Shown here: positions 44,052 through 60,568 of the stretch, in pieces
Layout of the letters: every line of letters starts with the position of its first letter
Position numbering within the stretch: the first letter of the stretch is position 1
Assembly (NCBI RefSeq): GCF_016907435.1
Contig: NZ_JAFBBZ010000001.1
Location: 3,224,001 to 3,288,000, forward strand
DNA: 64,000 nt
Origin: Nocardioides salarius
Lineage (GTDB): Bacteria; Actinomycetota; Actinomycetes; Propionibacteriales; Nocardioidaceae
Direction: 5' to 3'
Position numbers and translations under genes: made by a program
The notes under the pieces: generated by a model
The model's database searches: none
The model's input: only the letters and a program-made list of their open reading frames with translations
What the model was told of the DNA's origin: nothing

Positions 44052-45773
44052 TCAGGAGGCCTCGGTCAGGGTCGTGGGCGGCAGCCAGTCGGCGCCGAGC
44101 AGCTCGGCGAGGTCGGTGAGGCCGGTGGTGTCGCTGCCGACGGTGTCGGAGGCGGCGGCGATGCGCTCGACCATCACCTTGCCGACCTGCTCCTCGACGG
44201 TGCCTTCGGCGTAGGCGATGTGCCACGGCGAGACCTGGTGGTCGCGGTGGGTGCGGCCGGTGACCTGGCGCCCGGCGATGCCGGAGAAGCGGGCTTGGTG
44301 GAAGACGCCGACGCGGGGCTCGGTGCTGGCCTGGCGGCCGTCGGCGAGGCTCTCGCCGGCGTGCAGGCTGATGGAGGCGACGGTGGTGAAGACGCAGACC
44401 TTGGCCTGCCCGGTCTGGAACCGCAGCCGCTCGGCCTCGGGGTCGAAGCGGTCGCGGCCGTAGATCGTGGCGACCTCGATGCCGGAGTCGCGCAGCCGGT
44501 CGGCGATGGGGTCGGCGGCGGTCGCGACGAACTCGACCGAGCAGGCCACCTGCCGCTCGGCCTGCACCTGCTGGGCGATCCAGTCGACAGTGGAGTCGAC
44601 GCGGATCAGCCCGGCCTTCTGCCGGAAGCGCAGCAGCGCGGCCCGGCCCTTGGCGGTGTTGCGGCCGCGGCGGGCGATGTCCATCTCGCGGCAGAACTCG
44701 CCCCACTCGGCCTCGTACGCCGCCCGCTCGGCCGGTGTGAGCGTCACCGGCATGCCCGAGATCGGCACCGGCCCCCAGGGGGCGGCGCGGTGCAGCATCG
44801 CCGGGGGCTGCTCCTCGTCGAGCCATCCGCGCACCAGCTTGAGGTCGGCGGCGCGGCGGGCTGGGTCGGTGGTCCAGGTGGCGCCGTAGCGACCGTGCTC
44901 GACCTCGACGCCGTGGCGCTCGAGCGCGGTGGCGAACGCGACTCCGGGCTGCGTGGCCGAGGTCCAGTCCTTCATGGGCTCGCCGAGCACCTGCGCGTAG
45001 GCCGGGGCGAGGTAGGGCAGCTCGAGAGGAGTGTGGCCGGGGGTGGCGGTGGTGGCGATGACGAACGGCGCCTTGTCGTGGGGCTTGGCGTGGCTGGAGA
45101 TCCGCGCCCAGAGCTTCCACCGCTTGGTCGTCGTACGCCGCAGCGCGTGGGCCTCGTCGGCGATGATCACGTCCCAGGTGTGGTCCTTGACCTTCTCGAG
45201 CCGGTCCCAGGTGATCACCACCCACTCGAGCCCGCCGTCGCCGAGCGCGGTGATGGTGCGGCACCAGTGGCCGATCGTGATCGCGGCGGGCCGGTCGGCA
45301 ACCACGAGCACCCGCTGCGCGCCCCGGAGGTCACCGACCGCCGTCGCGCCAAGGACGGCGGAGATCGTCTTGCCGACACCGGGCTCGTCGGCGAGCAGGA
45401 ACTGCCGCCCGCCCGCCGCGGCGCGCTCCGCGATCGCGTCGGCCGCCTCGAACTGGAGCCGGCGCGGCTCGAGCGTGTCGGTCGGCTCGGGGGAGGGCGT
45501 CGGGTCGTCGGGGTTGAGGGTGTTCTCGATGAACCGCCCCAGCGTGTGCGGCCCGGGCGCGTACGGCGCCAGGTGCGCCGGCAGCGTGCGCCCGACGTAG
45601 AGGTGGGTCTTGACCGCGGGGTGCCAGCTCGCGCCGTCGACCTGCGTCCCGTAGGGCACGTCGAGCACCCACACCCGCTCGCCCGGGCCGGCGACCGGCA
45701 AGGGCCGGGGTGCGCTGCTCTTGCGCGAGCTGCCGCTACGTCGGCGGCCACTGGATCGACGAGAGCTGGCCAT
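44052..45773 (-). CDS. SNF2-like DEAH helicase with DUF5710-like N-terminus
   Basis: 573 residues. After a basic Ser/Arg tail, residues about 35-65 (VLDVPYGTQVDGASWHPAVK) resemble DUF5710. The helicase core has Walker A DEPGVGKT (129-136), box II ADEAHALR (about 205-212), SAT-like IATTATPG, and motif VI GRTHRDHQ near residue 500. TAGCGT and six bases before the ATG indicate a leaderless promoter. It is divergent by 125 bases from a PD-(D/E)XK-like gene. A DNA translocase role in defence or repair is inferred. Confidence 0.88.
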   Translation of the reverse strand: MASSRRSSGRRRSGSSRKSSAPRPLPVAGPGERVWVLDVPYGTQVDGASWHPAVKTHLYVGRTLPAHLAPYAPGPHTLGRFIENTLNPDDPTPSPEPTDTLEPRRLQFEAADAIAERAAAGGRQFLLADEPGVGKTISAVLGATAVGDLRGAQRVLVVADRPAAITIGHWCRTITALGDGGLEWVVITWDRLEKVKDHTWDVIIADEAHALRRTTTKRWKLWARISSHAKPHDKAPFVIATTATPGHTPLELPYLAPAYAQVLGEPMKDWTSATQPGVAFATALERHGVEVEHGRYGATWTTDPARRAADLKLVRGWLDEEQPPAMLHRAAPWGPVPISGMPVTLTPAERAAYEAEWGEFCREMDIARRGRNTAKGRAALLRFRQKAGLIRVDSTVDWIAQQVQAERQVACSVEFVATAADPIADRLRDSGIEVATIYGRDRFDPEAERLRFQTGQAKVCVFTTVASISLHAGESLADGRQASTEPRVGVFHQARFSGIAGRQVTGRTHRDHQVSPWHIAYAEGTVEEQVGKVMVERIAAASDTVGSDTTGLTDLAELLGADWLPPTTLTEAS

Positions 45774-45898
45774 CCGCTGACGCTATCGGGGCCGCGACCG
45801 GGAACCGGGCCGGCACGCCAAGTCGAGTTCTCCGATGATGGCTCCATCGCGGGGCTAGGGTGCCGAGCACCGGTCTTTACTTTCGCAAGGGGAATCGC

Positions 45899-47242
45899 GT
45901 GGCTGAGGAGTCCTGGCATGAAGCTCGTCTGATCCCGACCTCGGGGATCTCCGGGGTTGAGGAGCAGGAGCGACGAGCGACCTCGGCCCTGCTGGCGGTC
46001 ATGAGCGTCGTCAAGGAGTTCGGCCGGGCCCTGCTCGGTCCGGTCGGCGCCATCGCGGGCAACGTCGAGACGTTCATCGAGGTCCCGTTCGCTGTGGGGG
46101 ACGGGAAGAAGGTGATTCCGGACGGCCTGATCAGGGTCACCCGCGGCCAGCGTTCCTGGACCGCGCTGGTCGAGGTCAAGACCGGCAAGAACGAGCTCGA
46201 CACCGCGCAGCTCGAGAACTACCTCGACGTCGCCAAGGAACAGGGCTTCGATGCGCTCATCACGATCAGCAACGAGATCCCGGCGGTGGCAGGTCAACAC
46301 CCCACGAAGGTCGACAAGCGGAAGCTCAAGAAGGTCGCGCTCCACCACTGGTCCTGGACCTACATCCTCTCGACGGCGGTGATGCAGAAGGAGCATCGCG
46401 GCGTCACCGACCCGGAGCAGGCGTGGATCCTGGGCGAGCTGATCAGGTATCTGGAGCACCCGCGTTCGGGGGCCATGGAGCTCGAGGACATGGGTTCCGC
46501 CTGGGTGCCCGTCCGCCAGGCCGTGACAGCCGGCACGCTGCGCGCCAACGACCAGCAGGTCCCTGAGGTGGTCGCACGCTTCGACGCGCTCCTCCGGTAC
46601 ACCGCGCTGCGCCTCGGCAGGCAGCTCGGCACCGACGTCCTCCACGTGCTCAGCCGCAAGGAGCAGGCCGATCCCTCGCTGCGGGCGCAGGCGCTGACGG
46701 CGAGCCTGGTCGAGAACGGCTGCCTCGCGGGCACCATCCGTATCCCGCACACGGTGGCACCCCTGGAGATCCGGGCGGATCTGCGCGCCGGACGCATCAC
46801 CGCCTTCCTGGACATCGACGCCCCCAAGACCGGGAGGCCCGCCACCCGAGTGAACTGGCTGGTCCGGCAGCTCAAGCACGCCCCGGAGGGGGTCCGCATC
46901 GAAGCCTTCGCGGTGGGCGCGCGAGGGCCCGGTGCGACGGAGCTCTTGGCCAAGGTGCGTGAGGACCCCTCCTGCCTGGTCGCGGATCCCAAGCGGGACC
47001 TACGTGGTTTCCGGGTCGAGATCAGCGCCCCGCTGGGCACCAAGCGTGGCCGCGGCCGTGGGGCCTTCATCGACTCCGTCATCGACCTCGTCGACGACTT
47101 CTATACAGACGTCGTCCAGCACCTCAAGGCGTGGACCGCTTCGCCGCCCAAGATGCGTGAGACACCGGCCGAGGAGCCCGACGTCAGCCCTCAGCTGGTC
47201 TCGACGTCGCTCTCTTCGCAGGACGGACAGGACGAGGCGTAG
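45899..47242 (+). CDS. PD-(D/E)XK-nuclease-like protein of the defence island
   Basis: 447 residues, family not recognised with certainty. The N-terminal 125 residues have a restriction-endonuclease-like arrangement: a helix with E21/E22/Q23, VIPDGLI (Asp75), then WTALVEVKTG (Glu92-x-Lys94) and a following helix with Gln and Tyr (LDTAQLENYL). The remaining 320 residues are unassigned, mixed alpha/beta. The GTG at 45899 has AAGGGGA upstream, which decides the start over an in-frame GTG at 45860. Divergent from the helicase; possibly a helicase-nuclease pair. Confidence 0.75.
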   Translation: MAEESWHEARLIPTSGISGVEEQERRATSALLAVMSVVKEFGRALLGPVGAIAGNVETFIEVPFAVGDGKKVIPDGLIRVTRGQRSWTALVEVKTGKNELDTAQLENYLDVAKEQGFDALITISNEIPAVAGQHPTKVDKRKLKKVALHHWSWTYILSTAVMQKEHRGVTDPEQAWILGELIRYLEHPRSGAMELEDMGSAWVPVRQAVTAGTLRANDQQVPEVVARFDALLRYTALRLGRQLGTDVLHVLSRKEQADPSLRAQALTASLVENGCLAGTIRIPHTVAPLEIRADLRAGRITAFLDIDAPKTGRPATRVNWLVRQLKHAPEGVRIEAFAVGARGPGATELLAKVREDPSCLVADPKRDLRGFRVEISAPLGTKRGRGRGAFIDSVIDLVDDFYTDVVQHLKAWTASPPKMRETPAEEPDVSPQLVSTSLSSQDGQDEA

Positions 47243-47298
47243 GGGCGGACGGGCGGGTGAGAGCTGGTGGGTGCCCAGCGGCTCTGTTTCCATGAGCC

Positions 47299-47889
47299 AT
47301 GGCTTTCGACCCGCCCGCTGCACGCGACCTTTCCGGCGCAGAACCCTTCGATGGCCTTGACGCATCCGTCGTTGACTTCTGGAGGTTCGCGATGAGCGAC
47401 CTCCGCACCAACAACGTCCGGGGCTACCTGGCCGAGTTCCTCGTCGCGCGCGCCGTGGGCTCGACGAGCCCACGGGTGGAATGGGCCCCATGGGACGTGA
47501 CTGCGCCAGACGGGACCAGGATCGAGGTGAAGTCGTCTGGATTCCTCCAGTCGTGGGCACAGAGGAGGTTGAGCACTCCGAGGTTCCAGGTCTCGGCGGC
47601 CTACGGATGGGATGCAGGGACGGGCGCCTGGTCCGAGGAACAGGGATTCAACGCAGACGCCTACGTGTTCTGCCTCCACACGGCGAAGACTCACGATGAG
47701 TACGATCCGCTCGCCCTTTCTCAGTGGCAGTTCTACGTCGCGGCACGCCAATCGATCGAGGACCTGGCCGGAGCCGCCATGGGCCTCCCAAGGCTCGCGA
47801 GGGTCGCCGGTGACCCAGTGCTCTATGCGGGCCTGCGGGACGCGATCGCTGTCGCCGCAGAGAGGACTCGGCTCATCAACTGGTCATGA
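47299..47889 (+). CDS. Small PD-(D/E)XK-like protein
   Basis: 196 residues, no recognised name. The pattern is nuclease-like: NNVRGYLAEFLVARAVG (Glu46), WDVTAPDG (Asp66), then IEVKSSGFLQSW (Glu76-x-Lys78). This order is common in type II restriction and recombination nucleases. It lies 56 bases after the 447-residue protein on the same strand. No methyltransferase is nearby, which argues against a classical restriction enzyme. Codon use is less G/C-biased than in the flanks. Confidence 0.68.
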   Translation: MAFDPPAARDLSGAEPFDGLDASVVDFWRFAMSDLRTNNVRGYLAEFLVARAVGSTSPRVEWAPWDVTAPDGTRIEVKSSGFLQSWAQRRLSTPRFQVSAAYGWDAGTGAWSEEQGFNADAYVFCLHTAKTHDEYDPLALSQWQFYVAARQSIEDLAGAAMGLPRLARVAGDPVLYAGLRDAIAVAAERTRLINWS

Positions 47890-47947
47890 CCGACCTGTGT
47901 GCGAGGCGTCCGGCACGTGGCGTCACGACGCAGGTACTCGATGGGCG

Positions 47948-49114
47948 TCAGACCCTCTCGAGATCTTCGGCAAGCCGCACGACTGCGTCGCCTATCGCAG
48001 AGGAGGCCTCGATGAGTCTGTCGGACGAAACACGTCCGCCGTCGACTTGGAGCGACCGCAGGATCGCCTTGACCCGGGCGCTCTCGCCCGCGACGGCGCG
48101 GTAGATGGGCGACTGGTTGTCCCCGTTCGCGGCTGCCAGGGCTAGTTCCGCAACCTCGATGAACTTGGCGTTCATGACGTCGAAGTACTGCTGGAGGACC
48201 GCGACGATCTGCGCCTGGTTCTCGAACTCGGCCGGGTCGAAGGCGTCGTCGCCGCCAGCGCGGTCGTGCAGAACCTGAGCAGCGTGGTTGCAGGACTGGA
48301 CATCGCCGCTCTCGTTGTAGGTGAAGAGCGCCACTGCGGCATCGTTGGCGTACTCCACCGCGGCCTTCGTGTAGCCGGACAAGCTGTAGAAGAGCGCTGC
48401 TCCGCGACCGTGGGCGGCTCCGCGAAGTTGCTGGATGACGGGAGCGCCGATCGGCGTCGCGTAGTGCTTCACCTGGGCCACTGCATCGGTCGCCCGGACG
48501 TCGAGGCCGCCGTCCGCGCCTGGAGGAGTCATCTTGGCGTCCTCGAAGCCGAGCTTCTGCATGTGCCAGGCCGCGAGGGCCTCGGCCTGCTGCCAGGAGG
48601 AGACGGCAGGACCGGCCTGTTCGTCAGGCACGGCTTCGATCTGCGGCGCGTCGCGTTCGAGGGCCGGGACTTGCTCAGCCGGGACAGACACCGCCCGCGT
48701 GGGAACATCGTCCTGGGGAACCGCGACAGGCATCGGGCTAGGTGCAACCGGGGCAGCCGGCACCTGGGGCGCGGCGATGGGCGGCACCGGCTCTTGGGCA
48801 GACCGCCACCGGAGGTAGTCACGGTTGACGAAGAGGCCATAACCGATGAGGACGAGCCACAGGACCGCCGCGTAGCCTGCGCCGACCTCCTGCATGAGCT
48901 CGACGGGCGTCAACAGCAGGACGAGGCCGAGGAGGCTGAACGCGGTCGTGACGAAGGCGCGGCGCTTCCAGGCGGTCGAGCGGACACGGACGGCGCAGTA
49001 GATGAAGCCGATGCATGAGAACGATCCGACTCCCAAGGCCACCGCCAGGAGCCAGGCACTATGGCGGACCTTCCACGCGAGGCTGCGAGTGGCGAAGGAG
49101 GCGGTGTCGGACAT
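47948..49114 (-). CDS. Membrane-anchored Mrr-type restriction endonuclease
   Basis: 388 residues. Three membrane helices (about 18-42, 53-72 and 80-98) and a long Pro/Ala/Val linker (105-170) precede an Mrr_cat domain (about 175-270) with GADGGLDV (catalytic Asp), AQVKHY (Gln-x-Lys) and QQLRGAAHGRGAA. Mrr enzymes cut modified DNA, and membrane-tethered versions occur in defence islands. A helical domain follows. It converges with the small PD-(D/E)XK gene. Confidence 0.88.
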   Translation of the reverse strand: MSDTASFATRSLAWKVRHSAWLLAVALGVGSFSCIGFIYCAVRVRSTAWKRRAFVTTAFSLLGLVLLLTPVELMQEVGAGYAAVLWLVLIGYGLFVNRDYLRWRSAQEPVPPIAAPQVPAAPVAPSPMPVAVPQDDVPTRAVSVPAEQVPALERDAPQIEAVPDEQAGPAVSSWQQAEALAAWHMQKLGFEDAKMTPPGADGGLDVRATDAVAQVKHYATPIGAPVIQQLRGAAHGRGAALFYSLSGYTKAAVEYANDAAVALFTYNESGDVQSCNHAAQVLHDRAGGDDAFDPAEFENQAQIVAVLQQYFDVMNAKFIEVAELALAAANGDNQSPIYRAVAGESARVKAILRSLQVDGGRVSSDRLIEASSAIGDAVVRLAEDLERV

Positions 49115-49340
49115 GCGGGAAGTCTGTCAAACACTGCCGACACTCGTCCGACAACGTTGGCTGTCCCCCCGCTGGGTAGCAGCGTCCCGCCCGCTCAGCC
49201 GGCCGCGCGGATCGAAGCGGGATGCTTGTTTCGTCCTCCATCTCCCGGCGCGACACTCGCGGCGGAATGACGCATGTGGTCGCCATGGTTCCAGTGAGAC
49301 GGTCGGAGGTCGCTGCGGCTTTAGCTAGCCCGCCGCCCTC

Positions 49341-50292
49341 CTAGCTGAGTTCTTGCTCGTTCTCCTCGCGCAGGTGGGTCACCACCAAGAAGTCGGGAGT
49401 GTCACGGAGGATTGGCCCCATGTCACGGTCATAGACTGGTGCAGCGGCACTATCGACATTGGGCTCGGCGTCTGACAATGACCGCCACGCTGAGTCGACC
49501 TGCTCCTCCTGCAGCAAGTCAGCCCAAGCCTGCGGCGTGTCGCTCACCCCAAGAGGATGCCCATGCCCATGCCCATGCCCATGTCCACTTGCCGGATTGT
49601 GTAACGCTCGCCGCGCTCGGCCAAGTAGGTATTCCTTCGGCAGCGAGCCGCTGCACCAGGGGGTAGTCATCGGGCAGGTGATGCACTCCCAAGGCACCGC
49701 TGCCGGATTGATGTCGTATCCGGTGATAGCCCACTTCGGAGTAGTCGCCTCGGGCTTGCGCTTTATGTGTGAACGCACCCAGTCGGCGTCCGCCAAACTG
49801 ATGGCAAGTGGCGATGTCGCAGGCGAAGCACTCGCCAAACTTCCGCGGGTGACTGCGGCCGCACCCTAGATGGGCGCCTACATGACCCTCTGTACCGAAG
49901 GGGAGAGCCGAGCCGTTATAAAAAGCATATACTGGGACTTGGCCGTTCCCCTTCGCGCGTAGCAGCGCGGCGGCTTGGTCGTCTGCCTTATCGTTCCCGT
50001 CTTTGGTCGTGCCTAACCCCTCGTACTGGCCCGACGGGAACAAGATCTTGGCCTGCACGCGAAGGTGAAGCCAGCGTCGCCTGTCGACCGAACGCAAGGC
50101 CCACAGGAAGTCGTGACCGTCCCTGACCTCCTCGGCAATCGTCGCTTTGCTGACCCAAGTCGTGGACGACCTGAAGCGATGCATTGCCACCAACAAGCCT
50201 TCGGTCGCAGTCTCTTCACGGGGCTTAAATGGCGCATCCCGCAGGAACTCCCATAGCCTTCCCGACAGTTGCTCTAAGTCATGCCGATTCAC
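49341..50292 (-). pseudogene. DUF6615-like gene split by a frameshift
   Basis: The 5' part reads from GTG 50292 (NRHDLEQLSGRLWEFLRDA, HDFLWALRS, LRVQAKILFPSGQYEG) to about SHPRKFGE. The family-like continuation (ISLADADWVRSH, then WECITCPM and DTPDFLVVTHL) is in another frame ending at 49341. Frames must change between about 49800 and 49832; an in-frame TAG at 49866-49868 blocks the second frame further upstream. Without a shift, translation would end at 49519 in unrelated sequence. A TTA codon near the start and AT-rich stretches mark it as foreign. The DUF6615 assignment is from memory of the family; a sequencing error is possible. Confidence 0.68.
49557..49584. repeat. Six-base tandem repeat encoding Gly-His
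   Basis: About four to five copies of CCATGC in a row. In the minus-strand frame that ends at 49341 they encode a (Gly-His)5 run. Because the unit is a multiple of three, copy-number change would keep the frame. Confidence 0.85.
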
Positions 50293-50613
50293 GCCGTCAA
50301 GTATTGCGCAGCGAGCGCGTGAATTGTCCGCACCGCACCGCGGCAGTTAGCGCCCGTGGTCCGCGCGCCGAACGAGATGCCAGGTGTCGCCGCCGAGGTT
50401 GTTCCGAGTCAGCATCGAAAGGTCAGATCCTTCGAGCGTCCTGCAAGCGGCGGGATAACCCACACGGTTCGCCCAGCAGTCCCCAGCTGGCCTTGATGGT
50501 TCTGTGTTCCGGATTGTTGACACTGGGCTTGATCCAGCGATCTCCATTGCCGCGAGATGCCCTGGTTGGCGATTCGCGTCAATTTCCTGGATCTCCCGGT
50601 AGCGTGCTGGAGC
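50293..50613. other. Divergent intergenic region without a recognised gene
   Basis: About 320 bases between the DUF6615-like gene and the SIR2 gene. No convincing gene was seen. It should hold both promoters: AATACT just before the minus-strand GTG at 50292, and TAGCGT (50600-50605) eight bases before the SIR2 ATG. Composition is less GC-rich than the window average. Confidence 0.6.
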
Positions 50614-51783
50614 ATGGAGGAGCCATCTGTTGGAGACCGCAAGACTGGACCAAGGCCGGCGAGTAGTCACAACAGCACTGGACCATCGGTCAGGGTGCCA
50701 GGTGAGAAGGAATGGCAGTCACTCACGGAATCTGACGGACGTGCCTGGAACTTGTTCGAGTCGGTCGGTCTGGCTAGCTACCGCAGCGAGAACCTTGTTG
50801 TCTTGCTGGGTTTGGGAACCTCACTCGGCCTGAATGGCGGCGGCGGCATGGCGCCCACGATGAGTGACCTGTTCGTTAGTGTAAAGACATTGGACGGGTA
50901 CGACCGCGCGGCAGAACTGGCGCCGACCGCGATCGAGGCTGGCGACGTCGAAGCGCTTCTGTCGGCCTGTCAGATGCAGGTAGGTCTGACCGACGACGAA
51001 GTCACGAAACGGTTCTTGGACGCCGCCGAAGCGGTAGTCCTCCAGGCGTGCAGCTTTGTGGACGACACGACCGACCTAGGCACGCACGAGGCCTTCCTTC
51101 GTAAGGTCGGTAGACGGGCGACAAGGCTCGCTCGCACCAAGGTGTTCACCACGAACTACGACCTCGCCATTGAGCGTGCAGCCCAAGCAACACGCTTCAC
51201 CCTTCTCGACGGCTTCGGTCCGACCGCGGGTGAACTCTTCGACGGAGGCAACTTCGATCTTGACGTCGTACGTCGCGCACCAGACGGGACGCTCCAACTA
51301 GCTCCGAACGTCATTCAGCTCTACAAGCTCCACGGCTCCGTGGATTGGGACGAGACGAACGACGGTGTGCGTCGGGACCCAAGCCCCGCGAACCCAGTAT
51401 TGATCTACCCGTCGAGCATGAAGTACCAGCAGTCGTACCGTCCGCCCTACCTCGAATCGATGGCTCGCTTCCAGATGACGCTGCGACAGCCAGAGACGAC
51501 CGTCATCGTCGCCGGTTTCGGCTTCAACGACGCACATGTCGTTGGCCCACTGCTATCGGCTGTCCGGTCCAACGTGTCACTGCGCCTCATCGTCGTCGAC
51601 CCGGTTCTGCGCGAGACCAAGAACGAGTCCTTGCTGACGTTATTGCGTCTCTCGGACGCGCGTGATGAGCGGATCCTGCTCTTCGCTGGCACCTTCGCCG
51701 AGTTCACCACCCGCCTTCCCGATATGGCACCTCAGGACGCGCACGAGGCTCACGACGAGCGAGTGCGAAGCACGTCGATCTGA
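50614..51783 (+). CDS. SIR2-domain NADase of a SIR2-HerA defence system
   Basis: 389 residues, SIR2_2-type domain. Visible are the nucleotide loop LLGLGTSLG (about 64-72), FTTNYDLAIERA (about 178-189), KLHGSVDW (about 238-245, with the conserved His) and IVAGFGFNDAHVVGPLL. In SIR2-HerA systems the SIR2 protein degrades NAD during phage infection while complexed with the HerA ATPase. Its TGA shares its last base with the HerA ATG. The ATG at 50614 is chosen for the TAGCGT upstream. Codon use is less G/C-biased than the flanks. Confidence 0.9.
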   Translation: MEEPSVGDRKTGPRPASSHNSTGPSVRVPGEKEWQSLTESDGRAWNLFESVGLASYRSENLVVLLGLGTSLGLNGGGGMAPTMSDLFVSVKTLDGYDRAAELAPTAIEAGDVEALLSACQMQVGLTDDEVTKRFLDAAEAVVLQACSFVDDTTDLGTHEAFLRKVGRRATRLARTKVFTTNYDLAIERAAQATRFTLLDGFGPTAGELFDGGNFDLDVVRRAPDGTLQLAPNVIQLYKLHGSVDWDETNDGVRRDPSPANPVLIYPSSMKYQQSYRPPYLESMARFQMTLRQPETTVIVAGFGFNDAHVVGPLLSAVRSNVSLRLIVVDPVLRETKNESLLTLLRLSDARDERILLFAGTFAEFTTRLPDMAPQDAHEAHDERVRSTSI

Positions 51784-53477
51784 TGGAATTCCTCGACCCT
51801 TTCATCCCCGAGCGCCTGGCCGGCACCGTCATCGCCGTCCAAGGGTCCGAAGCGACGGTGTCCCTGCCGTGGGCAGGCATGGCGCCGGTGTCGCTCTTCG
51901 GCCAGCCGGTCCTTCGCGGCGAGGTCGGGGAGTTCTTGCTCTTCGCATGCGGACCCTTCGCGATCTTCGGTCGACTGGTGACCCTCGAAGCACCGCGGAC
52001 CAAGCGGCCGGAAGCCAGCACGACACCTGGTGCCCAAGTCGCAACTGAGGTCTCCGGGACCGTCCAGCTCTTGGGGACGCTTCGGCTCAACGGAAAGTTC
52101 GCGCGCGGTTTGGAACGTCACCCCCGTGTCGGGGACCTCGCCTACGCCGCCGATGCTGACGCGATCCGCGCCGTGTTGTCGTCGGGGGTCGATGCAGACG
52201 GCGCGCGACTGCCCCTCGGCGTCCTGCGTGGCGGGCAGGACGTCGAGATCGACGTGCCGGCCGAGGTGTTGTTCGGTCGACATCTGGCCATAGTCGGATC
52301 CACCGGTGGTGGAAAGAGTTGGACACTGCAGACCCTGATGGAGCAGTCCGCAAAGGAGGGGGTGCGGATCCTGCTTCTGGATGCCACCGGTGAATTTGCC
52401 CCGCTCGATAATCTGGCCGACCACGTCTCTGTTGCGACATCGCCACCGGCGATCGGGTCTCAGGCCTCCCTGCCGCACCGTCAGCTCAGCGAGTCGGACA
52501 GGCGTGCGCTCCTGCGCCCATCGGCGGGAGCCCAGCTTCCGAAGCTTCGATCCGCCATTCGGTCGCTACGCCTTGCAAACGCGCTGGGAGAGGGGCACAG
52601 CCTGATTCAAGACGGGCTGCTCTATAAGGCCAACCGGCCGCGCAAGCCCTACTCGGATGCGTGCTTCGAGCATGCGGCAGTACTTGATGACCCCCAAGCC
52701 CCCTTCAACCTTCGGAAGCTCAGCCAGCAGGTGCCGCTCGAGTGCGTCTACGAGAACGACCAGCGCGAAGGGACAAGTTTCGGGAACTGGGCGATGAATG
52801 AACTCAGCTACTGCAACACGATGATCGCTCGGATCCTCGACCTCACCTCGACAGCCGAGGTCATGGACATCCTCGACCCGCATGACGCGTCGCCGTCGGA
52901 GTCAGTGCTTGATCTCGTTGACCAGTGGCTGGATAGCGAACCTTCCAAGAACATCCTGCGCATCTCGCTCGCCGACCTCACGTTCGAACACAACATGCGC
53001 GAGATCGTCGTGAACACCATCGGTCGCCACCTTCTTTCAAAAGCAAGAAAGGGCGCGTTCAATCCCCGACCCCTCGTTGTCGCAATTGATGAGGCGCATC
53101 AGTTCTTCGGGCAGGGCGTTGCGGACGAGTTTGTGGCAGCTTCTTTCGATTCGTTCGACCTCGTCGCGAAAGAAGGGCGCAAGTATGGGCTAGTGATCTG
53201 TATGGCGACCCAGCGTCCAGGCGATCTGCCCGCCGCAGTCCTTAGTCAGGCCGGCATGCTTTTGGTGCACAGGCTCACTGAGAGACGCGACCGTGAGCGC
53301 GTGGAGCAGGCAGCTTCCGAGCTGACGCTGGCGGCTACTCGGCTTCTCCCGGCACTGGTGCCGGGAGAGGCGCTAATCGTGGGTAGCGAATTCGCGGTAC
53401 CGGTTCCCGTCCGCATGCACCGACCACAACGGCCCCCGAAGTCCGATGGGCCTACTTTTTCGCGCACGCATCACTAG
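51783..53477 (+). CDS. HerA-like hexameric ATPase of a SIR2-HerA defence system
   Basis: 564 residues. The N-terminal beta-barrel (HAS-barrel-like, about 1-110) is followed by a HerA/FtsK-type RecA core: Walker A VGSTGGGKSWT (about 171-181), LLLDATGEF, Walker B VVAIDEAHQFF (about residue 430) and the sensor ATQRPGDLP. HerA proteins form hexameric translocases. Here it would assemble with the SIR2 NADase, as described for SIR2-HerA. One-base overlap with the SIR2 gene. A nuclease activity reported for some such complexes cannot be judged here. Confidence 0.93.
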   Translation: MEFLDPFIPERLAGTVIAVQGSEATVSLPWAGMAPVSLFGQPVLRGEVGEFLLFACGPFAIFGRLVTLEAPRTKRPEASTTPGAQVATEVSGTVQLLGTLRLNGKFARGLERHPRVGDLAYAADADAIRAVLSSGVDADGARLPLGVLRGGQDVEIDVPAEVLFGRHLAIVGSTGGGKSWTLQTLMEQSAKEGVRILLLDATGEFAPLDNLADHVSVATSPPAIGSQASLPHRQLSESDRRALLRPSAGAQLPKLRSAIRSLRLANALGEGHSLIQDGLLYKANRPRKPYSDACFEHAAVLDDPQAPFNLRKLSQQVPLECVYENDQREGTSFGNWAMNELSYCNTMIARILDLTSTAEVMDILDPHDASPSESVLDLVDQWLDSEPSKNILRISLADLTFEHNMREIVVNTIGRHLLSKARKGAFNPRPLVVAIDEAHQFFGQGVADEFVAASFDSFDLVAKEGRKYGLVICMATQRPGDLPAAVLSQAGMLLVHRLTERRDRERVEQAASELTLAATRLLPALVPGEALIVGSEFAVPVPVRMHRPQRPPKSDGPTFSRTHH

Positions 53478-53486
53478 CTATTGACT

Positions 53487-53525
53487 CAGCGAAGTCAGGG
53501 CGTATTCCAACGACAAGCTTCGCTG
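53487..53525. terminator. Weak hairpin after HerA gene
   Basis: CAGCGAAG (53487-53494) can pair with CTTCGCTG (53518-53525) across a 23-base loop, ten bases beyond the HerA stop. There is no T-run. A terminator role is tentative. Confidence 0.3.
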
Positions 53526-53550
53526 GCGGAGGATGTCAGGCATGGTGCCC

Positions 53551-53580
53551 GGAGCGCCGGAGCGCCGGAGCGCCGGAGCG
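53551..53580. repeat. Eight-base tandem repeat GGAGCGCC x 3.75
   Basis: A perfect run of three full GGAGCGCC units plus GGAGCG in the 261-base gap between the HerA gene and the DUF222/HNH gene. It marks the right edge of the low-GC island. Likely a slippage-prone tract. Confidence 0.85.
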
Positions 53581-53738
53581 ACGTGGCGGAGTGGACCCAG
53601 CCGCGAGGTCGACCGGCGCGTCATAGTGGGCGGTAGGACGCTGGTCCGCCGGGTCCGTTGTGCCTGAACTGATATCGCGTTCACGCAGGTCAGCGTGGGT
53701 GCGGCGGGACTGTCGGTGGCTGGTGCTTGAGTGGGTGC

Positions 53739-55052
53739 ATGCTGATCGAGACGGACCTCGCGGGTGGTCCGGTTCGGGTGGATGACCTGGACCGGGACTC
53801 GGTGCTGTGGTTCGCCGAGCAGGCCAAGGCACGCGAGGCCGCGGCGGCGTTGGCGGTGCTGCACGCGACGATCCGCTGGTGCGAGACCAACACCGTCGAG
53901 GACCCGAAGTGGGCGGCGGGGTTCGGGGAGGTCGGCGGCGACCTGGACTGCCCGGAGAAGATCGGTGGCGACGGGCGACCGATGGTCGCGGCGTTCTCCG
54001 CCGAACCCCTCGCCGCGGCGATGGAGATCTCCACGACCGCCGCCCTGACCCTGATGGCCGATGCGCTCGAGCTGGCGCACCGGCTGCCGCGGGTGATGGC
54101 ACGAGTCGAGGCCCTCGAGGTACCGGTGTGGCGCGCACGCAGCATCGCCCAAGCCACGTCCTCGCTCTCACCCGAGGCGGCGGCCTACGTCGACGCCGAG
54201 ATCGCCTCCCGCGCCCACCGAGTCGGGCCCGTGGTGCTGGCCCGGCTGGTCGAGACCGCCCGGGCTCGCTACGACACCGACGCCCACGAAGAGGCCGAAG
54301 AGTCCGCGCGGGAGTCGTGGGACGTGACGCTGACCCACGGCGACGGCCGCGACCAGCGGTGGTTGGGGACCTCGTGGATGGAGATCACCGGCGACACCGC
54401 CACCCTGGCCGACCTCCACGACCTGGTGGGGCGTACTGCCCACGACCTGCTGGCCATCCACCCCGACCTGCCCCTGGCCCGGCGCCGGGTGCTGGCGCTG
54501 CAGGTCATCGTCGACCGGGCCCGCGCCCACGGCGACAGCCCCGCACCGAGCCGGCCGTACAAGGCCTACGTGCACCTGACCGCGACCCCCGAGGGTGACA
54601 TCGCACCCCTGGGGCGGGTGGAGGACCTCGGCCCCGCGACCAGTGCGATGATCCGTGACTGGCTCACCGGCGCCCGGGTGACGGTGACGCCGGTGCTCGA
54701 CCCCGACCGCGGCGACCCCGTCGATGCCCACGACCCGCCGGAGTGGATGCGCGAGCTGGTCGTCCAGCGCGACCAGCACTGCGTCTTCCCCGACTGCCGC
54801 CGCCCCGCCAGGCGCTGCGACCTCGACCACATCAGTACCTGCATCGACCCCGCCCACGGCGGACCACCCGGCCAGACACATCCCGGCAACCTCGCCCCCT
54901 TGTGCAGACGACATCACCGGGCCAAGACCACCACCGACCCCACCAAGCAGTGGCGCTACCGACGCATGGACCACGGCCACTACACCTGGACCGGACCCCA
55001 GGACCAACGACTCGTCGTCGTCCCCGGCATCGGCACCTACTCACCCCTCTAA
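53739..55052 (+). CDS. DUF222/HNH (13E12-family) protein, copy 2
   Basis: 437 residues. N-terminal DUF222-like helical region, C-terminal HNH motif: CVFPDCRRPARRCDLDHI, then NLAPLCRRHHRAKT. This HNH is the canonical type and differs from copy 1 at 11162, so the two are not recent duplicates. The ATG is preferred to an in-frame TTG 12 bases upstream. It lies directly beyond the SIR2-HerA genes. 13E12-like loci are known integration sites, so it may mark the island edge. Confidence 0.92.
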   Translation: MLIETDLAGGPVRVDDLDRDSVLWFAEQAKAREAAAALAVLHATIRWCETNTVEDPKWAAGFGEVGGDLDCPEKIGGDGRPMVAAFSAEPLAAAMEISTTAALTLMADALELAHRLPRVMARVEALEVPVWRARSIAQATSSLSPEAAAYVDAEIASRAHRVGPVVLARLVETARARYDTDAHEEAEESARESWDVTLTHGDGRDQRWLGTSWMEITGDTATLADLHDLVGRTAHDLLAIHPDLPLARRRVLALQVIVDRARAHGDSPAPSRPYKAYVHLTATPEGDIAPLGRVEDLGPATSAMIRDWLTGARVTVTPVLDPDRGDPVDAHDPPEWMRELVVQRDQHCVFPDCRRPARRCDLDHISTCIDPAHGGPPGQTHPGNLAPLCRRHHRAKTTTDPTKQWRYRRMDHGHYTWTGPQDQRLVVVPGIGTYSPL

Positions 55053-55066
55053 GAGGAGGGGAGGGG

Positions 55067-55717
55067 CTACTGACGACCCATCATCCCGGCCTGCGACACC
55101 CCGGCGCGCGTGCCCGCTTCGGCCTTGGCGACGCTGGTCAGCCACCCCGACGTCGATGCGTTCGCCGTCGAGCTCCACGAGTGCATCGCCGCGTCGTCGG
55201 CGGCGTACCAGGGCACGTAGCGGTCGCCCACCCGCACCTGGCGCACGTCGGGCGCCTCGCCGTCGTCGAGGCGCACCGCGTCGTTGCGGCAGACCTCCAC
55301 CTCGCGCTCGGTGCCGTGCGGGGGAGTCCACGACACCGTCGTGACCGCCGGGCCGTGCTGGGGGTTGAAGAAGCACGGGCCGCGACGCTCCGGCAACGGC
55401 TCGTCGGCCCGCAGCGCCAGCACCGCCGCCCGGGCGTAGCGCCCCTTGTTCAACAGCTCCTCGACCGAGCCGACCTCCTGCACCGTCGACGCCCCCTCCA
55501 GCGCCGCCGCGGCCGCGGCGTACGCATCGAGCGCCTCCTGGTGGAAGTCGCGCACCTCGTGGCTGTGCGAGCCCTCGAGGTCGACGTCGAGCTCGGCGAC
55601 CTGCTCACCGAGCACCGTCACGTCCTCGCGCGCCAACCGCCTGGCCGAGCGGAACTCCTCGGCCGCCTGCAGCTCCCGCTCACGACGATCCCGACGGGCT
55701 CCCCACGGTGTCCTCAT
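55067..55717 (-). CDS. Conserved actinobacterial protein with CFFNPQHGPA motif
   Basis: 216 residues, probably cytosolic. An N-terminal coiled-coil-like region (10-90) is followed by CFFNPQHGPAVTTVSW and a second cysteine in VEVCRNDAVRL, a pattern I associate with the C-terminal part of some TPM-domain membrane proteins. Residues about 180-216 are Ala/Gly-rich. Function unknown. It follows the GyrI-like gene by 28 bases. Confidence 0.75.
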   Translation of the reverse strand: MRTPWGARRDRRERELQAAEEFRSARRLAREDVTVLGEQVAELDVDLEGSHSHEVRDFHQEALDAYAAAAAALEGASTVQEVGSVEELLNKGRYARAAVLALRADEPLPERRGPCFFNPQHGPAVTTVSWTPPHGTEREVEVCRNDAVRLDDGEAPDVRQVRVGDRYVPWYAADDAAMHSWSSTANASTSGWLTSVAKAEAGTRAGVSQAGMMGRQ

Positions 55718-55745
55718 GCCTCCTCTTTACCCTGCGTCCCCGATC

Positions 55746-56237
55746 TCATGCACCCCGGGCCACCGGCCAGCAGACCAGCGTGCGCCACTGCTGCGGGTCC
55801 GGCTCGGCCTCCGGGTCGCTCAGGTAGGACTCCCACGGCGGCCCCGCCGGCACCATGCCCTGCTCGCCCATCCACGACTCCATCGCGGCGTACGTCTCGA
55901 CGACCTTGTCGTAGGGGCCCGTGTGCAGCGCCTGCGCCACCTCGCCTCCTGGCAGCAGCAGGTCGTGCACCCCCTCCGCCTCGCCCGTGCCGCCCGTGGC
56001 CCCCGTCGCCGCCGAGACCGGGAAGCCCGCCTCGACCTCCACCGTCTCGCCCGGCATCGACGGGAACAGCCCGAACGGTGGGCCGACCAGGTCGACCCCC
56101 GCCGCCGCGGCCGCCGCCGGCACCGCCGAGAAGGCCCGCCCGAAGAGGCTCGGCAGGTCGGGCGGTGCGACGTCGCCGTGCACGGCGAGCGCGGGCTGCG
56201 GCGCCAGGGTGACGATCTCGACCGGTGAGGTGACCAT
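55746..56237 (-). CDS. GyrI-like small-molecule-binding domain protein
   Basis: 163 residues resembling the GyrI/AraC effector-binding fold: VEIVTLAPQPALAVHGDV at the N-terminus, then VEVEAGFPV and ALHTGPYDKVVETYAAMESW, and the late WESYLSDPEAEPDPQQW. No DNA-binding domain is attached. Such stand-alone domains bind or hydrolyse drug-like molecules. The start is the ATG giving a standard-length domain. Confidence 0.87.
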   Translation of the reverse strand: MVTSPVEIVTLAPQPALAVHGDVAPPDLPSLFGRAFSAVPAAAAAAGVDLVGPPFGLFPSMPGETVEVEAGFPVSAATGATGGTGEAEGVHDLLLPGGEVAQALHTGPYDKVVETYAAMESWMGEQGMVPAGPPWESYLSDPEAEPDPQQWRTLVCWPVARGA

Positions 56238-56328
56238 GCTCCAGCCTGCGCCTCGGGATCTCCCAAGACAACCAACCTGCGCCACCGCGCGTCGTACGCT
56301 GCACACTCCCGTCTCGAGAGGGCCCCCC

Positions 56329-57531
56329 ATGCCCCGTCGCACCGCGCTGCTCGCGCTCCCGCTGGCCGCGCTCCTGGCTACCGCCCCCACCACCCTCACC
56401 AGCACCGCCTCCGCCGCCCCCGAGCGCGACGAGCGCGCCGCCGACGTGGTGCTCGAGGGCCGCGGCTTCGGCCACGGCAAGGGCCTCTCGCAGTACGGCG
56501 CCCGGGCCGCGGCCGCGCAGGGCCGCACCCACCAGGAGATCCTCGACTTCTACTACCCGGGCACCCAGCGCGGCGGCGTCGCCGGCGACGTCGAGGTGCT
56601 GATCAGCGCCGACACCACCACCGACGTCAAGGTCCGGCCCGCCCGCGGTCTGCGGGTGCGCAGCGTCGCCACCGGCCGCAGCCGCTGGCTCGCGCGCCTG
56701 GCCCCCGACGCCCGCGCCTGGCGGATCACCTCGGCCACCCGAGGCCGCAGCAACGTCGAGGCCAAGGTCAAGGGCGGCTGGAGCCGCGTGCGCACCCTCG
56801 CCGGTGACGCCGAGCTGCTCGCCAAGGAGCCGCTCACCCTGCTCCTGCCCCGCGGTGCCCGGGCCACCTACCGCGGCGCGCTGCGCTCGGCCTCCACCGG
56901 CGCCGGCCGCGACCGCGACACCGTCAACGTCGTCGACTTCGAGGACTACCTGCGCGGCGTCGTGCCCGGCGAGGTCCCCGCCCTCTGGCCCACCGAGGCC
57001 GTGCGCGCCCAGGCCGTCGCCGCCCGCACCTACGCGGCGTACGAGCGCGACCACGCGCCCGCCGCCCGTCACTACGAGCTCTGCGACACCTCCGCCTGCC
57101 AGGTCTACCGCGGCGTCGACGCCGAGCACCCCGGCTCCGACGCCGCCGTGGCCGCCACCGTCGGCGTCGTCGTGACCGCCGACGGCGCCCCCGCCTTCAC
57201 CCAGTTCTCCGCCAGCAACGGCGGCTGGACCCGGGCCGGCTCCTTCCCCTACCTCCAGGCCGTCGAGGACCCCTGGGACACCGCCCCCGAGGCCCAGAAC
57301 CCGTACGCGCAGTGGAGCAGGACCCTCACGCCAGCCGTCCTCGAGAAGGTCTGGCCCGGCTCCGGCAGCTTCGTCTCCCTCGAGGTCGTCGCCCGCGACG
57401 GCAACGGCGCCTGGGGTGGGCGGGTGGTGCGCGTCGAGGTGACCTTCACCGGCGCCACCCGCAGCGCGACCGGCGACCAGTTCCGCAGCTGGCTGGGGCT
57501 GCGCTCCGACTGGTTCCGGCCGCAGCCCTAG
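56329..57531 (+). CDS. Secreted SpoIID/LytB-domain protein, paralogue 1
   Basis: 400 residues. Signal peptide about 1-29 (STASA-AP). The early GFGHGKGLSQYGARAAAAQG and late VDFEDYLRGVVPGEVPALWP, AVRAQAVAARTYAAY and CDTSACQVYRG define SpoIID/LytB, a family acting on peptidoglycan as lytic transglycosylase or amidase activator. It ends 10 bases from the convergent ABC-F stop. A clear paralogue lies on the other side of the ABC-F gene. Confidence 0.92.
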   Translation: MPRRTALLALPLAALLATAPTTLTSTASAAPERDERAADVVLEGRGFGHGKGLSQYGARAAAAQGRTHQEILDFYYPGTQRGGVAGDVEVLISADTTTDVKVRPARGLRVRSVATGRSRWLARLAPDARAWRITSATRGRSNVEAKVKGGWSRVRTLAGDAELLAKEPLTLLLPRGARATYRGALRSASTGAGRDRDTVNVVDFEDYLRGVVPGEVPALWPTEAVRAQAVAARTYAAYERDHAPAARHYELCDTSACQVYRGVDAEHPGSDAAVAATVGVVVTADGAPAFTQFSASNGGWTRAGSFPYLQAVEDPWDTAPEAQNPYAQWSRTLTPAVLEKVWPGSGSFVSLEVVARDGNGAWGGRVVRVEVTFTGATRSATGDQFRSWLGLRSDWFRPQP

Positions 57532-57541
57532 GGGCCGGCTC

Positions 57542-59203
57542 CTAGACGACGCCGACCGTGACCCGGCCGGCCTCGACGTGCCAGCGCTGGTCGAGGCGCA
57601 CCCCGGCCAGCAGCCGCCGGTCGTGCGAGACCAGCAGCAGCGCCCCGTCGTACGACGCCAGCGCCTGCTCGAGCTGCTCGATCGCCGGCAGGTCGAGGTG
57701 GTTGGTGGGCTCGTCGAGCACCAGCAGGTTGACCCCGCGCGCCTGCAGCAGCGCCATCGCCGCGCGAGTGCGCTCGCCGGGGGAGAGGCGGCCGACCACA
57801 GCGCCCACCTGGTCGGCCTTGAGGCCGAACTTCGCCAGCAGCGTGCGCACCTCGGCCTGGGTCATCTCGGGCACCGCCCGCTCGAACGCCTCACCCAGCG
57901 CCAAGTCGTGGTCGAGCCCGGTGCGGGCCTGGTCGATGACCCCCACGGCCACCGACGCCCCCAGCGACGCCGAGCCGCTGTCGGGCTCGGCCCAGCCCAG
58001 CAGCAGCCCCAGCAGCGTGGTCTTGCCGGCGCCGTTCGGCCCGGTCACGCCGATCCGGTCGCCCGCCTCGACCTGCAGCGAGACCGGCCCGAGCGTGAAG
58101 TCGCCCAGGCGACGCGTCGCCTCGTTGAGCGTGGCCACCACCGCGCTCGAGCGCGGCGCCGCCGCGATGTCGAACTGCAGGCGCCACTCCTTGCGCGGCT
58201 CCTCGACCTCGTCGAGCCGGGCGATGCGCGACTCCATCTGCCGCACCTTCTGCGCCTGCTTCTCCGAGGACTCCGTGGCCGCCTTGCGCCGGATCTTGTC
58301 GTTGTCGGGGCTCTTCTTCATCGCGTTGCGCACGCCCTGCGAGCTCCACTCGCGCTGGGTGCGCGCCCGCGCCACCAGGTCGGCCCGGGTGCCGGCGTAC
58401 TGCTCGTAGGCCTCGCGGGCGTGGCGCCGGGCGACCTCGCGCTCCTCGAGGAACGCCTCGTAGCCGCCGTCGTAGACGCTGACCTGGCCCTGGGCCAGGT
58501 CGAGCTCGACGACCCGGGTCACGCACCGGGCCAGGAACTCGCGGTCGTGCGAGACCAGCACCACCCCGCCCCGCAGCCCCTGCACGAAGGCCTCGAGCCG
58601 GGCCAGCCCGTCGAGGTCGAGGTCGTTGGTCGGCTCGTCGAGCAGCACCACGTCGAAGCGGCTCAGCAGCAGCGCCGCCAGCGCCGCGCGCGCCGCCTGC
58701 CCGCCCGACAGCGCGGTCATCGGCGTGGCGATGTCGACGTCGAGGCCGAGGTCGGCCAGCACCGGGCCGAGCCGGTCCTCCAGGTCGGGGGCGCCGCTGC
58801 CCAGCCAGCGGTCGAAGGCCACGCCGTAGGCGTCGTCGGCGCCGGGCTCGCCCGAGCCGAGCGCGCCGGCGGTGCGCTCCATCTCGGCGGTGGCCTCGGC
58901 CGCGCCCGTACGCCGGGCGACGTACTGCGCGACCGTCTCGCCCGGCACCCGCTCGTGCTCCTGCGGCAACCAGCCCACGAAGGCGTCCCTCGGCGCGCAG
59001 GCGACGCTGCCGGCGAGCGGTGTCGTGGCGCCGGCCAGCAGCCGCAGCAGCGTGGACTTGCCGGCACCGTTGGCGCCGACCACCCCGACCACGTCACCGG
59101 GGGCGACGGTCAGGTCGAGTCCCTCGAAGAGCACCCGGTGGCCGTGGCCGCCGGACAGGTCCTTGGCGACGAGGGTGGCGCTCACGGGCCGAGCGTAGGC
59201 CAT
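57542..59203 (-). CDS. ABC-F family ATPase
   Basis: 553 residues with two ABC domains and no membrane helices. Walker A GANGAGKST and GPNGAGKTT; signatures LSGGQAARAAL and LSPGERTRAAM (Pro replaces Gly); Walker B VVLLDEPTND and LLVLDEPTNH; and a charged linker (about 240-320) between them. ABC-F proteins act on the ribosome and some give antibiotic resistance. The ATG at 59203 lies just beyond a perfect 20-base palindrome containing its likely -10; a GTG at 59185 is an alternative start. Confidence 0.92.
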   Translation of the reverse strand: MAYARPVSATLVAKDLSGGHGHRVLFEGLDLTVAPGDVVGVVGANGAGKSTLLRLLAGATTPLAGSVACAPRDAFVGWLPQEHERVPGETVAQYVARRTGAAEATAEMERTAGALGSGEPGADDAYGVAFDRWLGSGAPDLEDRLGPVLADLGLDVDIATPMTALSGGQAARAALAALLLSRFDVVLLDEPTNDLDLDGLARLEAFVQGLRGGVVLVSHDREFLARCVTRVVELDLAQGQVSVYDGGYEAFLEEREVARRHAREAYEQYAGTRADLVARARTQREWSSQGVRNAMKKSPDNDKIRRKAATESSEKQAQKVRQMESRIARLDEVEEPRKEWRLQFDIAAAPRSSAVVATLNEATRRLGDFTLGPVSLQVEAGDRIGVTGPNGAGKTTLLGLLLGWAEPDSGSASLGASVAVGVIDQARTGLDHDLALGEAFERAVPEMTQAEVRTLLAKFGLKADQVGAVVGRLSPGERTRAAMALLQARGVNLLVLDEPTNHLDLPAIEQLEQALASYDGALLLVSHDRRLLAGVRLDQRWHVEAGRVTVGVV

Positions 59204-59210
59204 CGCCGTC

Positions 59211-59230
59211 GAACTACAGATCTGTAGTTC
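59211..59230. promoter_or_regulatory. Perfect 20-base palindrome before the ABC-F gene
   Basis: GAACTACAGA/TCTGTAGTTC is perfectly symmetrical and contains TGTAGT on both strands, usable as a -10 in either direction. On the minus strand this -10 would start transcription a few bases before the ABC-F ATG. It is likely a repressor operator, perhaps for a TetR or MarR protein not in the window. Confidence 0.75.
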
Positions 59231-59335
59231 CTCGCGGTCGATTGCACACCGCTGTGGCCCGTGGTGCGATGGGGGCTGGTGTGGTCACTCCAGCCACATC
59301 CTTCCCCCTCGTTCGGTGTCTTCCGGGAGTCCTCC

Positions 59336-60568
59336 ATGCGCGCTGCGCCGCTCTGCCTGCGGGCAGTGCTGCTGCCCGCGCTCGCCCTCGCCCTGGTGTC
59401 GGTCGGCGCGCCCCCGGCCGTGGCCGCGAAGGACTCCTGGAAGGTGCCCGCGAAGGCGAGCATCACCGTGCGCGGCCACGGCTTCGGGCACGGCCACGGC
59501 ATGTCGCAGCACGGCGCCGAGGGCGCGGCGCGACGCGGGCTGAGCGCCGCGAAGATCCTGGACTTCTACTACCCGGGCACCACCGCGGGGAAGCGCGGCG
59601 GACGGGTCAGCGTGCTGATCTCGGCCGACACCACCGACGACCTCGTGGTCCGCAGCCGCGACGGGCTGCGCGTGCGCGACCTCGGCTCCGGCGCCACCAC
59701 CCGGCTGCCGACGAAGATCGGCGGCCGCACGCCCGCGCTGTGGCGGGTGCGGCAGAACCACCGCGACCGCACCCGCGTCTCGTGGCGCACCTCCGCCGGC
59801 GGCAAGGGCTCCTGGACCAAGTGGCGCGACCTCAAGGGCCACGGCGAGCTCAGCGCCGGCAACGCGCCGGTCACCCTGGTCACCCCCTCCGGCGACCGCG
59901 CCTACCGCGGCCGGCTGCGCGCGCTGCCGCCCAGCGCCGGCTCGAAGGCACGCGACACCGTCAACAAGCTGCGCCTCGACGACTACCTGCGCGGCGTCGT
60001 GCCGCTCGAGATCCCCGCGTCGTGGAGCCCGGCCGCCGTGCGCGCCCAGGCGGTCGCCGCCCGCAGCTACGCCGTCTTCGAGCGGCGCACCCCGCGCGCG
60101 GCGCACTACCAGCTCTGCGACACCTCCTCCTGCCAGGTCTACGGCGGGGTGCGCGCCGAGCAGCCGGGCTCCGACGCCGCCGTGCGCGCCACCGCCAAGC
60201 AGGTGCGCCTCGCCGACGGCCAGGCCGCCTTCACCCAGTTCTCCTCCAGCAGCGGCGGCTGGACCGCCGCCGGCTCGCGGTCCTACCTGCGCGCCAAGCC
60301 CGACCCGTACGACGACTGGGCCGGCAACCCGCACCACGACTGGTCGGTGACCCTCACCGACGGGCGCCTCGAGAGCGCGTTCCCCGCCGTCGGCGACCTG
60401 CGCTCGATCAAGGTCCTCGACCGCGACGGCAACGGCCAGTGGGGCGGGCGGGTGCGCTCGGTGCGCCTGGCCGGCACCCGCGGCACGGTCACGGTGAGCG
60501 GTGACGCCCTGCGCTTCGGGCTGGGGCTGAAGTCGCCGTGGGTGACGTTCCGGGTGCGCGCGCGCTGA
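59336..60568 (+). CDS. Secreted SpoIID/LytB-domain protein, paralogue 2
   Basis: 410 residues. Signal peptide about 1-30 (AVAA-KD). GHGFGHGHGMSQHGAEGAARRG, LDDYLRGVVPLEIPASW, AVRAQAVAARSYAVF and CDTSSCQVYGG follow the same order as the paralogue at 56329. GGGAG precedes the ATG. Its last 80 bases overlap the end of the convergent BenE gene, an unusually long overlap. Confidence 0.92.
   Translation: MRAAPLCLRAVLLPALALALVSVGAPPAVAAKDSWKVPAKASITVRGHGFGHGHGMSQHGAEGAARRGLSAAKILDFYYPGTTAGKRGGRVSVLISADTTDDLVVRSRDGLRVRDLGSGATTRLPTKIGGRTPALWRVRQNHRDRTRVSWRTSAGGKGSWTKWRDLKGHGELSAGNAPVTLVTPSGDRAYRGRLRALPPSAGSKARDTVNKLRLDDYLRGVVPLEIPASWSPAAVRAQAVAARSYAVFERRTPRAAHYQLCDTSSCQVYGGVRAEQPGSDAAVRATAKQVRLADGQAAFTQFSSSSGGWTAAGSRSYLRAKPDPYDDWAGNPHHDWSVTLTDGRLESAFPAVGDLRSIKVLDRDGNGQWGGRVRSVRLAGTRGTVTVSGDALRFGLGLKSPWVTFRVRAR

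Follow-up and report, generated by a model that had tools for sequence, protein, structure and literature searches.

A SIR2-HerA gene pair of foreign origin, probably an anti-phage module, in Nocardioides salarius

We analyzed a 64,000-nucleotide stretch of the Nocardioides salarius genome (contig NZ_JAFBBZ010000001.1, positions 3,224,001 to 3,288,000), referred to as the window, which carries two adjacent plus-strand genes encoding a SIR2-domain protein and a HerA ATPase. The upstream gene (50614 to 51783, + strand) encodes a SIR2_2 protein of 389 residues, a predicted nicotinamide adenine dinucleotide (NAD) hydrolase effector, recognized by PADLOC, by Pfam SIR2_2, by its AlphaFold model and its matches to PDB folds, and by its Asn/His pair. 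The downstream gene (51783 to 53477, + strand) encodes a HerA/FtsK-family ATPase of 564 residues, recognized by the PADLOC HerA model, Pfam DUF87 and HerA_C, its model and its Walker motifs. The SIR2 stop and the HerA start share one base within TGATG (51781 to 51785, + strand), an arrangement suggestive of translational coupling. A sequence-only reading of the window had proposed a SIR2_2 protein and a HerA ATPase overlapping by one base, and we confirmed both open reading frames (ORFs) and the shared base. The SIR2 frame has two candidate starts (50557 and 50614, ending at 51783 on the + strand); the latter is supported because the in-frame ATG of a close copy, the 84% identical SIR2 of contig L076, aligns with it. 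Beyond this gene anatomy, we establish the motifs, predicted folds and conserved pairing of the two genes, together with purifying selection and a foreign origin, and we conclude that they very probably form an anti-phage module of the SIR2-HerA (Nezha) type, complete and gained by horizontal transfer.

Profiles, catalytic motifs and predicted folds

Within the PADLOC library, the SIR2 protein was matched best by PDLC04075 (251 bits, E 4.3e-75), followed by another SIR2 model at 124.9 bits and a best SIR2-Argonaute model at 78.9 bits, and its Pfam SIR2_2 match lay above the cut-off (39.7 bits). The HerA protein was matched best by PDLC04103 (462 bits, E 7.5e-139) and matched both DUF87 and HerA_C above their cut-offs. 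These two PADLOC names are library labels to which we found no tested protein tied, in a comparison that covered part of the tested proteins. The sequence-only reading had named a profile search placing the SIR2 protein outside the defence clade as what would speak against it; that search gave the opposite result, with the PADLOC SIR2 model PDLC04075 as best match. When a profile of 38 SIR2 relatives was searched against the PDB at E 0.001, only 3 distinct sequences were recovered, all of them SIR2s from HerA-containing entries or systems. Unlike SIR2-Argonaute (SPARSA) systems, in which SIR2 is paired with a short Argonaute, the window pair has HerA as the partner; among nine window proteins scanned, none matched an Argonaute model, and only the SIR2 protein matched Aga_SIR2 models, at the 78.9 bits given above versus 251.

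In the SIR2 protein, the NAD loop occupies G66-L67-G68-T69-S70, Asn181 lies in FTTNYD and His240 in KLHGS (KLHGSVDW, 238-245), while in HerA the Walker A motif GSTGGGKS spans residues 172-179 (K178) and the Walker B motif VVAIDEAHQ residues 432-440 (D436, E437). The three catalytic motifs that had been read from the sequence are all present, and the KLHGSVDW histidine, placed near residue 240, is residue 240 exactly when counted from the ATG at 50614; that reading left unmentioned that the NAD loop is GLGTS instead of GAGxS, the canonical wording in SIR2 proteins. Across the window protein and 61 relatives, the catalytic Asn was kept in 62/62 rows and the His in all 61 rows with a letter at that position, and the residues flanking them in the core were also invariant. 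Likewise, K178, D436 and E437 of HerA showed no variation across 32 aligned rows. A hand count along the printed alignment pairs Asn181 and His240 with residues 168 and 227 in chain 8j4u from E. coli. In Vibrio cholerae Nezha, changes at residues with those numbers (N168A, H227A) or loss of herA are reported to cost phage immunity (PMC11559045).

AlphaFold models, built from the window proteins together with their relatives, were of good quality, with a mean predicted local distance difference test score (pLDDT) of 87.0 for SIR2 and 86.9 for HerA. With VIA-align, ten PDB entries matched the SIR2 model with Z 20.3-29.9 (26.9-29.9 in nine of them), and every one was SIR2-HerA or the SIR2 of such a system; the top rows had Z 29.9 with a root-mean-square deviation (rmsd) of 3.4 over 328 residues and Z 28.6 with an rmsd of 2.7 over 331. 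Outside SIR2-HerA, SIR2 folds scored Z 17.6 (ThsA) and about 16 (ordinary sirtuins). Foldseek ranks 1-39 for the SIR2 model were all chains of SIR2-HerA-system entries, and ranks 1-16 for the HerA model were HerA chains of SIR2-HerA entries, led by 8wld_L (8wiv is included here, its HerA sequence being listed together with that of 8wld); an archaeal HerA-NurA chain came next, with DUF4297-HerA chains close behind. As modeled, both partners fold most like the solved SIR2-HerA complexes, and for the SIR2 protein other defence SIR2s follow only at a wide distance.

The E. coli SIR2-HerA/Nezha system (8sub, 8su9, 8j4u, 8uae) resembles the window pair in combining SIR2 with HerA, in having Asn and His in register, in its SIR2 fold (Z 27.5-28.6 over 322-331 residues) and in that its HerA chains are among the best fold matches, but its SIR2 is only 24-26% identical and has GAGAS in 8j4u where the window has GLGTS. 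PsSIR2-HerA (8w9l, 8wld, 8wiv) and the 8yhx SIR2 with its DUF87 HerA share the two-component build and the fold (Z 27.0-27.2 and 29.9, respectively) but show 16-20% identity and a different NAD-loop wording. Vibrio cholerae Nezha is also a two-gene module in which the Asn and His are required for immunity, and it is reported to share a genomic island with further defence genes (PMC11559045). Those SIR2-HerA features that we tested at the level of genes and folds are present in the window pair, and the two-gene SIR2-HerA identity proposed from the sequence is borne out by the agreement of PADLOC models, folds and conserved pairing. For the subgroup to which the window pair belongs, we found no tested member in open-licence papers or in a sequence comparison covering the solved structures.

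Conserved pairing, foreign origin and neighbourhood

Scanning named genomes of bacteria and archaea yielded 55 loci, the nearest in Tsukamurella asaccharolytica (63%) and the remainder mainly proteobacterial at about 40%. HerA adjoins SIR2 on the same strand in 56 of the 61 loci with a SIR2 relative, which come from several phyla. The five exceptions comprise two loci in which a shorter HerA ORF follows at a distance of 356 or 1164 bases, two with SIR2 at a contig end, and L047, where no HerA was found at E 1e-5. The adjacent pairs overlap by 4 bases in 30 cases and by 1 base in 11, taking longest-ORF starts. The 61-locus and 62-row counts leave out the window’s own genome (L001, L061, L064), L057 (apparently the same as L050), L062 and L063 (the same places as L066 and L067), the synteny regions L065 and L068 to L075, and three distinct short loci from the phylum search, L058, L059 and L060. 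These last three all retain the Asn and His, with a GAGxS loop; HerA lies next to SIR2 in L059 and L060, and L058 has no HerA at E 1e-5 within its 3.8 kb. L056 gave no SIR2 match at E 1e-5.

The same five rows, namely the window, L076, Tsukamurella, a Rhodococcus plasmid and the genus relative G470, form a strongly supported group in both the SIR2 tree (99/98) and the HerA tree (100), although the latter is a quick version and the deeper forks of both trees are unsure (long branches). The G470 and Rhodococcus plasmid pairs (L066, L077) have PDLC04075 and PDLC04103 as best models, as does the window pair. Fourteen tblastn queries, comprising 13 further called genes at or beyond 43 kb and a second ORF of the DUF6615 region described below, gave no match at E 1e-5 in a 57-locus database in which control searches recovered SIR2 in 56 loci and HerA in 53. 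Within this set, the pair is not accompanied by the genes of the surrounding island.

The SIR2-HerA pair is foreign to this chromosome. GC content is 61-65% at 50-54 kb, whereas 52 of the window's 64 one-kilobase steps reach at least 70%, and third-position GC is 0.73-0.74 in SIR2 and HerA versus 0.94-0.98 in the genes beyond the island (44052-45773 and 55067-60568). That the host is a high-GC actinomycete, as had been read from the sequence, fits the window GC and the phylum searches. Counts that include this genome each time were 3/196 genus genomes for the HerA protein search, 2/396 phylum genomes for the HerA model and 5/296 for the SIR2 protein search.

The fecal contig L076 (MT837022.1, GC 61-66%) carries a pair that is 84% (SIR2) and 88% (HerA) identical, with the same one-base overlap and the same GLGTS. 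Because the DNA match between the window and L076 (50698 to 53443, 80%) is confined to the pair, with unrelated flanks, the pair moves as a unit. Relative to the L076 copy, ratios of nonsynonymous to synonymous substitution (dN/dS) were 0.10 for SIR2 and 0.05 for HerA; these ratios are rough because the synonymous distances are large (0.97 and 1.46), yet both point to selection for function. L076 is filed as a bacteriophage from human feces and marked ‘UNVERIFIED’; three other scanned ORFs on it had no PHROG match at E 0.001, and the contig is perhaps a piece of a bacterial genome or island.

Several further observations concern the relatives. In the genus relative G486 (L067, 187-7488), a different SIR2-HerA subtype (PDLC04084 with PDLC04106) lies directly after PglZ and BrxL, an arrangement that looks like incorporation into a BREX locus. 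On an IMG/VR contig of putative viral origin (L078, 5878-12734), a SIR2-HerA pair is followed first by a 515-aa gene and then by two genes that resemble Septu, one for a PtuA-like ATPase (173.6 bits) and one for an HNH-like protein. In the plasmid collection, 390 records carry SIR2 relatives (E 1e-5), most often from Listeria, Citrobacter, Klebsiella and Escherichia, and 42 carry HerA relatives (E 1e-20), with Acinetobacter and Klebsiella the most frequent sources.

Upstream of the pair and divergently oriented lies a DUF6615-like ORF (49519 to 50292, − strand) with a partial match to Pfam DUF6615 (32.5 bits, profile positions 28-134 of 289 only). Its open frame of 275 aa compares with 318-429 aa in the six other genus matches, and blast homology to two of those six runs in one frame up to about 49753. 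The earlier description of this gene as degraded is thus plausible but unproven. About five copies of ATGCCC stand at 49557-49587, in the 3' part of this ORF, and another frame is open across and beyond the repeat. Our literature search of open-licence papers returned no paper on DUF6615. Also left of the pair, within 45860-50292, are a 460-aa gene that weakly matches a restriction-nuclease fold (Tox-REase-7, under the cut-off) and has nothing at E 1 among PDB sequences, a 196-aa gene whose EVK motif we read as nuclease-like, without a database match, and an Mrr_cat gene (47948-49114). Taken as a whole, 45860-50292, along which GC falls, may be a small island of defence nucleases.

Between HerA and a DUF222 gene, the 8-base unit CCGGAGCG occurs in four perfect copies at 53549-53580. 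No convincing repeats were found at the island edges (45500-55500), and a tRNA scan of the window found none. The ABC-F gene right of the island is present in 18/30 genomes, this one included, and in the eight ABC-F regions compared, window genes besides ABC-F were matched only in scattered places. In one of these regions, from the genus relative G311 (L070, 8709-18427), the gene at 38655-39329 has a 62% relative, which lies about 7 kb to the left of ABC-F, compared with 18 kb in the window; this hints weakly at flanks that are shared but lack the island. We do not claim L070 as an empty insertion site, because the genes beside 38655-39329 in the window were not found there.

Proposed mechanism and alternative readings

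In the likeliest scheme, SIR2 and HerA would be translated from one message and assemble into a large complex, in which HerA, an ATPase of the DNA-translocase family, would be engaged during phage infection and license the SIR2 subunits. Licensed SIR2 would then hydrolyse NAD+ via Asn181 and His240, and with its NAD+ lost the infected cell could not complete the phage cycle. In homologues, 12 SIR2 and 6 HerA subunits are reported to assemble, HerA to be needed for NADase activity, and NAD+ to be converted to ADP-ribose and nicotinamide (PMC11559045). It is from these homologues that we infer complex formation, NAD hydrolysis and phage protection for the window pair, and the system probably destroys cell NAD upon phage attack.

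Several results weigh against the assignment. Both proteins fell below the cut-offs of the corresponding NCBIfam models, SIR2 with 98.1 bits on NF042942 (SIR2_antiphage, cut-off 500) and HerA with 132 bits on NF042943 (HerA_antiphage, cut-off 800), and sequence identity to the solved SIR2-HerA SIR2s is 16-26%. The N-terminal NAD loop, GLGTS, is without the Ala at the second position of GAGxS, a position that across the 62 rows holds 38 Ser, 18 Leu, 4 Ala, 1 Val and 1 gap (the single Val row is an N-terminally truncated ORF, probably misaligned). Finally, a sigma-70 type scan of 50280-53800, which may not suit this organism, found no promoter-like or terminator-like site. Judged by these scores, the window proteins are homologous to NF042942 and NF042943 but are not members of these narrow equivalogs, and since both lie far under the cut-offs, the pair represents a divergent subgroup and does not closely copy any tested system. 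The pair is a distant yet ordinary member of a known defence system.

The NAD loop raises the alternative that the pair is SIR2-HerA by descent with changed SIR2 chemistry, the Leu loop producing a signalling nucleotide or a target modification and not plain NAD depletion. GLGTS or GLGAS is found in the window, L076, L002, L077 and most Burkholderiales rows, most of which also have a longer loop ahead of an APTM/APMM motif. We consider this unlikely, given that Asn, His and the flanking core residues are invariant, and the Leu alone would be no sign of inactivity because the loop already varies among solved relatives (GAGAS in 8j4u, GCPVS in PsSIR2, GSGCS in 8yhx). Nor does Leu mark a single clade cleanly, because L066, sister to L077, has Ser and the Leu row L022 sits in another group. 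The broader proposal that GLGxS SIR2-HerA systems (actinobacterial and many Burkholderiales) are a functional variant, in which Leu changes substrate, product or basal activity, is similarly doubtful; if it were true, the output of these systems would differ from plain NAD depletion.

Less probable still is that the module, though acquired recently, is dead or silent and carried by a decaying island, a reading to which the possibly broken DUF6615-like ORF, the low GC and third-position GC (little adaptation to the host) and the empty promoter scan would be congenial; both frames are intact, however, the catalytic residues are kept, and the dN/dS ratios speak for function, although they average both lineages, so that very recent silencing would escape them. 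We give almost no credence to HerA as a chromosomal DNA-repair helicase with a coincidental SIR2 neighbour, in view of the adjacency of the two genes across several phyla, the shared five-row group in both trees and the scarcity of HerA in the genus.

As a SIR2-HerA module, the pair leaves the picture of how such systems work unchanged. It is an intact, foreign, selection-kept copy of a subgroup seldom seen in the phylum, as the HerA model was found in so few of its genomes, and it would allow the NAD-loop variant and the trigger to be probed outside the solved systems.
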